Assembly (NCBI RefSeq): GCF_013378445.1
Contig: NZ_JABXYK010000002.1
Span: 248,001-312,000, forward strand
Source of the DNA: Mycoplana rhizolycopersici
GTDB lineage: Bacteria; Pseudomonadota; Alphaproteobacteria; Rhizobiales; Rhizobiaceae
Length of the DNA stretch: 64,000 nt
Direction: 5' to 3'
Position 1 is the stretch's first letter, and each line of letters opens with the position of its first letter. Of the stretch, positions 60,549 through 64,000 are shown in pieces. Under the pieces are notes generated by a model. That model ran no database searches. It was not told the DNA's origin and was given only the letters and a program-made list of their open reading frames with translations. The position numbers and the translations under genes were made by a program.

Positions 60549-62732
<2,184 letters not shown>

Positions 62733-62831
62733 AGACTGCGACAGATTGGCGGAACAGAACGAGCATTTCGATTGCAGGGCTGACCAAAGGCGTCGGGCCT
62801 GAATGCCTCGTATGTTGCCATGCGGCGCATG

Positions 62832-62962
62832 GGCGGCTATACGGGTGCCAATCACCACGGACCCGGTGAAACTCCGGGTGGCTCTTCTGGCCGCCGATCC
62901 GCCAGACAACGCAAATGCATCAAATCACTCACATGCCGGCTTTCCAGCCGGCCTGGATGCAT
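62832..62962 (+). promoter_or_regulatory. Structured 5' leader of the SulP gene, candidate riboswitch or cis-regulatory RNA
   Basis: Closing stem GGCGGC (62832-62837) / GCCGCC (62890-62895) encloses two hairpins: GGTG-CCAAT-CACC (62844-62856) and ACCCGG-TGAAACT-CCGGGT (62861-62879), a three-way junction. Downstream, ATGCATC (62915-62921) / GATGCAT (62956-62962) encloses GCCGGCT-TTCC-AGCCGGC (62935-62952). The ATG at 62982 lacks a clear ribosome-binding site. The arrangement is that of an aptamer followed by an expression hairpin. From memory, a conserved RNA (sul1) has been described before sulfate-transporter genes of Alphaproteobacteria; I cannot confirm a match. Confidence 0.5.
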
Positions 62963-62981
62963 GGAATTTGCGAAACTTTCC

Positions 62982-64000
62982 ATGAAAACCACGTTCTCCT
63001 CCTACCGGCACGAATGGTTCTGCAACATTCGCGCAGACATCCTCTCGGGCATCGTCGTCGCCCTTGCCCTGATCCCCGAAGCGATCGGCTTCTCCGTCAT
63101 TGCCGGCGTCGATCCAAAGGTGGGCCTGTTCGCCTCCTTTGCCATCGCCTGCGTCTCGGCCTTCACCGGCGGCCGTCCCGGAATGATTTCGGCTGCGACC
63201 GCTGCAACCGCAGTGCTCATGGTCACGCTCGTCAAGGAGCACGGCCTGCAATACCTCTTCGCGGCGACCCTGCTGATGGGCGCCATCCAGATTGTTGCCG
63301 GCATGCTCAAGCTCGGCCGGGTGATGCGCTTCGTCTCCCGCTCCGTCATCACCGGCTTCGTCAACGCGCTGGCGATCCTGATCTTCATGGCGCAATTGCC
63401 CGAACTTATCGGCGTGCCGCACCTGACATACGTGATGATCGCTGCCGGGCTCGCCATCATCTATCTCTTACCCTACCTCACGAAGGCGGTGCCGTCGCCG
63501 CTCGTGGCGATTCTCGTCCTGACCGCGATCGCCTGGTGGGGTGGGCTGGATCTGCGCACCGTCGGCGACCTTGGCGAGCTTCCCTCGGCACTGCCGATTT
63601 TCGCCCTGCCGCAGGTGCCGCTGACTCTCGAGACGCTGCAGATCATCTTCCCCTATTCTGTGGCGCTCGCCGCAGTCGGCCTGCTGGAATCGCTGCTGAC
63701 GGCACAGATCGTCGACGACATGACCGACACGACGAGCTCGAAGAGCCAGGAGTGCATAGGCCAGGGCGCGAGCAATATCGCCTCCGGCCTGATCGGCGGC
63801 ATGGGCGGCTGCGCCATGATCGGGCAATCGGTGATCAACGTCACCTCCGGCGGCCGCGGCCGCCTGTCCACTTTCGTCGCTGGCGCCTTCCTGCTGTTCC
63901 TGATCCTCGTCCTTGACGACCTGGTGCGGATCATACCGATGGCCGCACTGGTGGCGGTGATGATCATGGTCTCGATCGGTACGTTCTCCTGGCGCTCCAT
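62982..64000 (+). CDS. SulP family inorganic anion transporter, N-terminal part
   Basis: First 339 residues; the gene runs off the window. Multiple membrane helices are visible, with the SulP landmark [35 protein letters not shown] (near 18-52), [21 protein letters not shown] and [19 protein letters not shown]. SulP proteins carry sulfate, bicarbonate or organic anions across the inner membrane; the substrate cannot be fixed without the C-terminal STAS region. The start [13 protein letters not shown] at 62982 is preceded by GGAA...TTTCC rather than a normal ribosome-binding site, and a structured leader precedes it. Confidence 0.92.

Follow-up and report, generated by a model that had tools for sequence, protein, structure and literature searches.

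Close to its downstream end, the window (the whole stretch of 64,000 nucleotides of DNA analysed here) holds the first part of a gene for a SulP transporter, a protein of 494 amino acids that begins at ATG 62982. The gene upstream of its leader encodes a methyl-accepting chemotaxis protein and ends at 62732. Between these two genes lies a sul1 RNA with a predicted promoter before it and a third stem, P3, after it:

62815 to 62820, + strand: predicted -35 element, TTGCCA, containing a conserved TTGC
62837 to 62842, + strand: predicted -10 element, CTATAC, separated from the -35 element by a 16-nt spacer and containing a conserved TA[TA]
62850 to 62851, + strand: predicted transcription start (A), inferred from its place 8-9 nt past the end of the -10 element
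62856 to 62911, + strand: sul1 RNA (RF03058), 76.1 bits against a gathering cut-off of 36.2 bits
62861 to 62879, + strand: P1 hairpin, arms 62861-62866/62874-62879, 97.7% paired, with 5 of 6 pairs changed on both sides
62880 to 62885, + strand: joining strand GGCUCU from P1 to P2, its GGCU near-invariant in alignment A1
62886 to 62906, + strand: P2 hairpin, arms 62886-62891/62901-62906, 97.8% paired, with 4 of 6 pairs changed on both sides
62911 to 62971, + strand: P3 stem-loop between sul1 and the start codon, from an arm-swap test, a window-pair scan and pair counts in relatives
62982 to 64000 and on past the window end (contig 310982-312463), + strand: SulP gene, PF00916 at 3.1e-55 on the part inside the window

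We found that a covariance-model search of Rfam matches 62856-62911 (+) to RF03058 over model positions 1-56 of 56 with an E-value of 4.5e-12, and that nothing else in the 64 kb window matches Rfam at curated cut-offs; no second copy was found in the same genome. An earlier sequence-only reading of this DNA had guessed at sul1, and the Rfam search confirms the guess. The structured leader that it described in front of SulP is likewise borne out, as 62832-62981 folds at -56.5 kcal/mol (z -2.40) with 7 of 200 shuffles equally stable. RF03058 carries the Rfam type 'Cis-reg; riboswitch', and SulP lies downstream of sul1 in 165 of 175 fetched loci (a part of the sul1 matches from the genome searches), in agreement with the cis-regulatory position that had been proposed. 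The leader shares with the family its sequence, a full-length match above the cut-off, P1 and P2 with compensatory changes, the GGCU strand and the P2 loop, a position before SulP and occurrence in the Alphaproteobacteria; judged by these comparisons, it is an unexceptional and well-formed member of a family that is known but unsolved. Rfam's model of 56 positions ends one base past ACAAC and holds neither P3 nor the promoter position nor the weak ribosome-binding site; what the comparisons below add to it is a corrected fold, a placed, predicted promoter, a third covarying stem (P3) and the gene contexts. Constructs limited to the 56-position model would miss P3 and the ribosome-binding site.

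The sul1 RNA was reportedly first described by Weinberg and others in 2017. The literature searched, whose scope left out most subscription papers and the original description, describes no ligand or mechanism for sul1. The RNA appears in the training-set table of a classifier (PMC7371854) and in a table counting riboswitch classes (PMC9943018), and one sentence in PMC10636060 speaks of sul1 with another accession (RF01070) and an enzyme gene. The word sul1 is absent from the main text of two riboswitch reviews (PMC7266159, PMC10043782).

Pairing in the core was assessed in an alignment (A1) of 150 sul1 leaders, six of them from loci where no SulP was found and 144 from a set of 160 leaders, which comprises the 175 loci minus ten without SulP, one without a start in its broken SulP gene (L028) and four near-duplicates. 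Across these 150 leaders, P1 and P2 together are paired in 97.7% of cells and show compensatory change at 9 of 12 pairs, a result reached by 0 of 500 shuffles, and pairing drops to 27-57% when the two hairpins are slid by 1-3 columns. Covariation among aligned leaders, which had been named as a check on the fold, is thus present in P1 and P2. The P1 loop contains GAAA at 62868-62871 and has a GNRA pattern in 108 of the 150 leaders, and the P2 loop (CGCCGAUCC, 62892-62900) is the same in 92 of them, the other 58 having one- or two-base variants. Both sides of a candidate pseudoknot, GGC in the joining strand with GCC in the P2 loop, hardly vary, which is too little for covariation to judge. An alternative stem, GGUGGC with GCCGCC (62877-62882/62890-62895), is 96.3% paired, yet 0 of its pairs are changed on both sides and one is broken in 26 of 150 leaders where P2 keeps its own; it was rejected.

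The sequence-only reading had drawn a three-way junction, in which a stem of 62832-62837 with 62890-62895 closes around two hairpins. Although this junction is the minimum-energy fold of 62832-62981 taken alone, its closing stem shows neither conservation nor covariation in the 150 leaders, with 42.3% of cells paired (460 of 500 shuffles are as high) and a change on both sides in 1 of 6 pairs, and an arm-swap test of the closing-stem zone was null (n=156). The stem also competes with P2, its right arm claiming 62890 and 62891, two bases of that covarying hairpin, and its left arm overlaps the predicted -10 element within the promoter region. We consider it extremely improbable that this junction is the functional fold.

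Placement of the promoter relies on 159 leaders, one having been omitted because its upstream part is too short. In 115 of the 159, a TTGC begins at -45 to -42 relative to the sul1 GGA, compared to 5 when the zone is moved 60 bases upstream, and TA[TA] starts at -21 to -19 in 88, compared to 3 for the zone moved by the same distance. Both motifs are in place together in 72 of the 159 leaders, and the base at -8 from the GGA is A in 52%. The promoter call rests on conservation because a simple scan for E. coli-type promoters detected none at the window leader; the match of TTGCCA and CTATAC to the sigma-70 consensus of S. meliloti, given as CTTGAC-N17-CTATAT (PMC2873474), is partial. Because the left arm of the closing stem overlaps this conserved sigma-70-like promoter, the SulP leader transcript probably starts near 62850, at A62850 or A62851, in which case that arm would be promoter and not RNA. 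The unconstrained fold of 62850-62990 consists of P1, P2 and P3 (-46 kcal/mol, z -2.38, with 2 of 200 shuffles as stable).

P3 shares with the Rfam model only the model's last position, 62911, and its 3' end lies 10 nt before the ATG. Its arms are 62911-62914/62968-62971, 62915-62921/62956-62962, 62932-62933/62954-62955 and 62935-62941/62946-62952, and the nested hairpin at 62915-62962 that had been noted earlier is real, forming the middle of this longer stem. Because the sequence of P3 differs greatly between genera, we tested it for pairing without an alignment. In the arm-swap test, which sets the first 14 bases after sul1 against positions -38 to -9 before the ATG in leaders of 50-110 nt (n=156), a leader's own arms gave a mean of -9.71 kcal/mol compared to -7.14 kcal/mol with arms swapped in from other leaders. 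The observed pairing was reached by 0 of 10000 permutations, whose lowest value was -7.79 kcal/mol, and the same test on a coding-region control gave no such signal. The window-pair scan, whose 20 x 12 = 240 cells reach from 48 bases upstream of the sul1 GGA as far as 36 bases into the coding sequence, covered 106 leaders of 62-100 nt, chosen so as to leave out those similar to another leader. Its maximum (z -11.8) pairs the first 12 nt after sul1 with positions -30 to -19 before the ATG, the adjoining cells have z of -4.3 to -7.3, and the scan segment straddling the sul1 end gives -5.1 and -5.0. An inner signal of z -5.9 comes from two scan segments that overlap in the shortest leaders, and beyond the P3 geometry no cell passes an absolute z of 3.5 in the 106 leaders.

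Pair counts point the same way in 15 close relatives, where 79.2% of P3 cells are paired and 7 of 20 pairs are changed on both sides; the paired percentage is reached by 0 of 500 shuffles and the changed-pair count by 8 of 500. Folding energy by itself does not distinguish the P3 segment from coding sequence (mean z -1.03 versus -0.82 for the coding control, p 0.07, and -0.23 upstream; n=157, with leaders longer than 110 nt omitted). RNAalifold did not return P3 from the 15 close relatives (alignment A2), and it returned an empty structure for 53 leaders.

The start codon at 62982 had been described as lacking a visible Shine-Dalgarno sequence, and this holds: the ATG follows GCGAAACTTTCC, and the window leader has its sole GGA at -19, within P3, and none in its last 15 bases. 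Among the 160 leaders, the longest Shine-Dalgarno match in -18 to -4 measures three bases in 126, four or five in 27 and none in 7, compared to three bases in 44, four or more in 29 and none in 87 for the coding control. Within -22 to -4, GGA is present in 94 of 160 leaders versus 31 of 160 in the control, and its usual place in the leaders is -10 to -8. A three-base site is therefore the rule in these leaders, and matches of at least 4 nt (27 of 160 versus 29 of 160) are no commoner than chance. P3 adjoins this ribosome-binding site in both the arm-swap test and the window-pair scan, and the 240-cell scan of 106 leaders found no covarying pairing of the sul1 core with the ribosome-binding site or the coding start. 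A scan of 62700-63050 found no terminator-like site.

SulP starts with ATG in 161 of 164 cases, under a selection rule that prefers ATG. In a Shinella relative (shn_RS31370), the start is annotated at the ATG that corresponds to 62982. We rejected an in-frame upstream SulP start at 62820, which lies 5' of the predicted transcript start and whose frame through sul1 keeps no constant offset from SulP among relatives; the Shinella annotation also matches 62982, and the similarity searches, whose SulP query began at 62982, cannot test the upstream start. A 60-amino-acid open frame at 62803-62985 (+) spans sul1 and at its end overlaps the SulP start codon, and relatives do not conserve its register with SulP.

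Riboswitches that control translation have a structured, conserved 5' core and a short platform beside a weak ribosome-binding site. The sul1 leader resembles them in its conserved 5' core, its weak ribosome-binding site and the lack of any terminator-like site in the scan, but differs in that no alternative pairing that hides or frees the ribosome-binding site was found. A transcription attenuator was rejected, as a terminator-like site is absent from the scanned leader, and the weak Shine-Dalgarno together with this absence favours control of translation start. Starting from what sequence comparison establishes (family membership, P1, P2, P3, the promoter position and the weak Shine-Dalgarno), we propose, with a probability of roughly 0.6, that sul1 and P3 form a leader exerting translational control of SulP beside a weak ribosome-binding site. 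On this proposal, the 5' leader of the SulP mRNA would consist almost entirely of sul1 and P3, with transcription beginning about 9 nt upstream of the sul1 GGA. The leader would fold into P1 with its GNRA-type loop, P2 with its near-invariant 9-nt loop, and P3, which would end 10 nt before the start codon beside the weak ribosome-binding site. The P1/P2 core may bind a ligand or factor, and P3 could keep the core beside the ribosome-binding site, altering the ease with which SulP translation starts.

Some of the same features would suit a 5' element that protects the mRNA or enables its translation and senses nothing: about 10 nt separate the start of P1 from the predicted 5' end, the Shine-Dalgarno is weak, and the scan found no alternative pairing. 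However, the P2 loop and GGCU strand appear more conserved than a plain stabiliser would need and sul1 also precedes unrelated genes, and we think an element of this kind unlikely. Processing or early ending of the leader to release a separate, trans-acting small RNA would agree with the compact, highly conserved 5' block and with the 379 mRNA-leader transcripts reported in S. meliloti (PMC2873474), but it is a distinctly improbable reading given the strong genomic tie of sul1 to its downstream gene and the lack of any terminator-like site in the scan. A conserved leader peptide in place of an RNA was rejected and is barely credible, for although the frame through sul1 is open in most leaders (a stop occurs in 7 of 160), its offset to the SulP start is near random (62, 59 and 39 of 160), core length ranges between 46 and 56 in steps of one base, and the stems change in compensation, as with C-G and U-A at columns 112/128 (119 and 31 of 150), a C/U difference that in the peptide frame would interchange proline and leucine.

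For translational control by the sul1 and P3 leader, the exceptional genes downstream of sul1 and the kinship of SulP to SLC26Dg lead to concrete ligand candidates. Ten of the 175 loci lack SulP behind sul1; among these, L037 and L038 fall below the Rfam cut-off, L091 lies at a contig end and L137 is a broken SulP locus. The other six precede genes of other kinds: a sulfotransferase (L107, PF13469), an acyltransferase-3 gene (L109, PF01757), a sodium/proton exchanger (L123, PF00999, behind a weaker sul1 of 43.4 bits) and, at L103, L106 and L162, members of one protein family that are 35-42% identical and have no Pfam hits. A protein of this last family occurs in 1 of 249 order genomes, at a locus to which sul1 had already led. 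Where a first start is readable, the non-SulP genes begin 74-294 bases after sul1, compared to a median of 72 for SulP. The L162 leader also forms a long stem after sul1, which would precede the start only if a later ATG (L162:872) is used, and the alignment with L106 favours that ATG. Behind the L162 gene lies a fragment whose DltB-like match is weak (E 2e-6, far under the curated cut-off) and which has no Pfam hit. The neighbouring fragment at L106 resembles it by eye and has no NCBIfam hit. The genomes of L107 and L109 hold two and three sul1 copies, respectively.

The nearest solved relative of the window SulP is 5DA0 (E 1.8e-186, residues 6-488), which is SLC26Dg of Deinococcus geothermalis, assayed for fumarate transport (PMC6497670); the likeness is one of sequence similarity between the proteins alone and covers no RNA leader. 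DauA of E. coli, also a SulP protein, is described as transporting C4-dicarboxylates at acidic pH (PMC5703999), and the window SulP scores under the NCBIfam cut-offs for sulP, DauA and BicA. The role in controlling anion uptake that the sequence-only reading assigned to the leader fits the association with SulP, but sits less well with a fumarate transporter as the nearest solved relative and with the 6 of 175 loci that lie before other genes. On the sequence comparisons made here, sulfate should not be presumed to be the sul1 ligand or the SulP substrate, because the nearest solved SulP carries fumarate and because of those same six loci. A more specific conjecture, which we put forward only tentatively and would lean against as a whole, is that sul1 is a three-helix control RNA (P1, P2 and P3) that does not sense sulfate and governs translation of an SLC26Dg-like, possibly dicarboxylate- or proton-coupled SulP. 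In a few genomes it would also govern genes for cation/proton exchange and genes resembling those for surface-polysaccharide modification, and its ligand would be a signal common to all of these.

Searches with stricter filters, under which weak matches may be lost, found sul1 in 25 of 61 near relatives and 176 of 394 genomes of the family. For the order the count was 80 of 397 and for the class 11 of 385, nine of these last above the cut-off. A SulP of at least 58% identity occurs in 31 of the 61 relatives, and 25 of these 31 carry sul1; all 25 sul1 genomes have such a SulP, and sul1 matches occur in 0 of the 30 genomes without one. Six of the 31 SulP genomes thus have no detectable sul1 (cmscan found none at these six loci at E up to 1), and the RNA is therefore dispensable for the gene. 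Near a SulP gene without sul1, at L198, a cobalamin riboswitch (136 bits) lies at 6-220. Among the matches listed by a pattern scan of named genomes are Rhizobium, Agrobacterium, Sinorhizobium, Shinella, Devosia, Brucella and Thalassobaculum. The same sul1-SulP arrangement occurs on pSymB of Sinorhizobium meliloti 1021, with the sul1 GGA at 79475 on the complement strand, which makes the sul1 question testable in this standard laboratory strain. In a genome of the same genus as the window, at L028, a second, weaker sul1 precedes a broken piece of SulP, a picture suggestive of a duplicated unit in decay.
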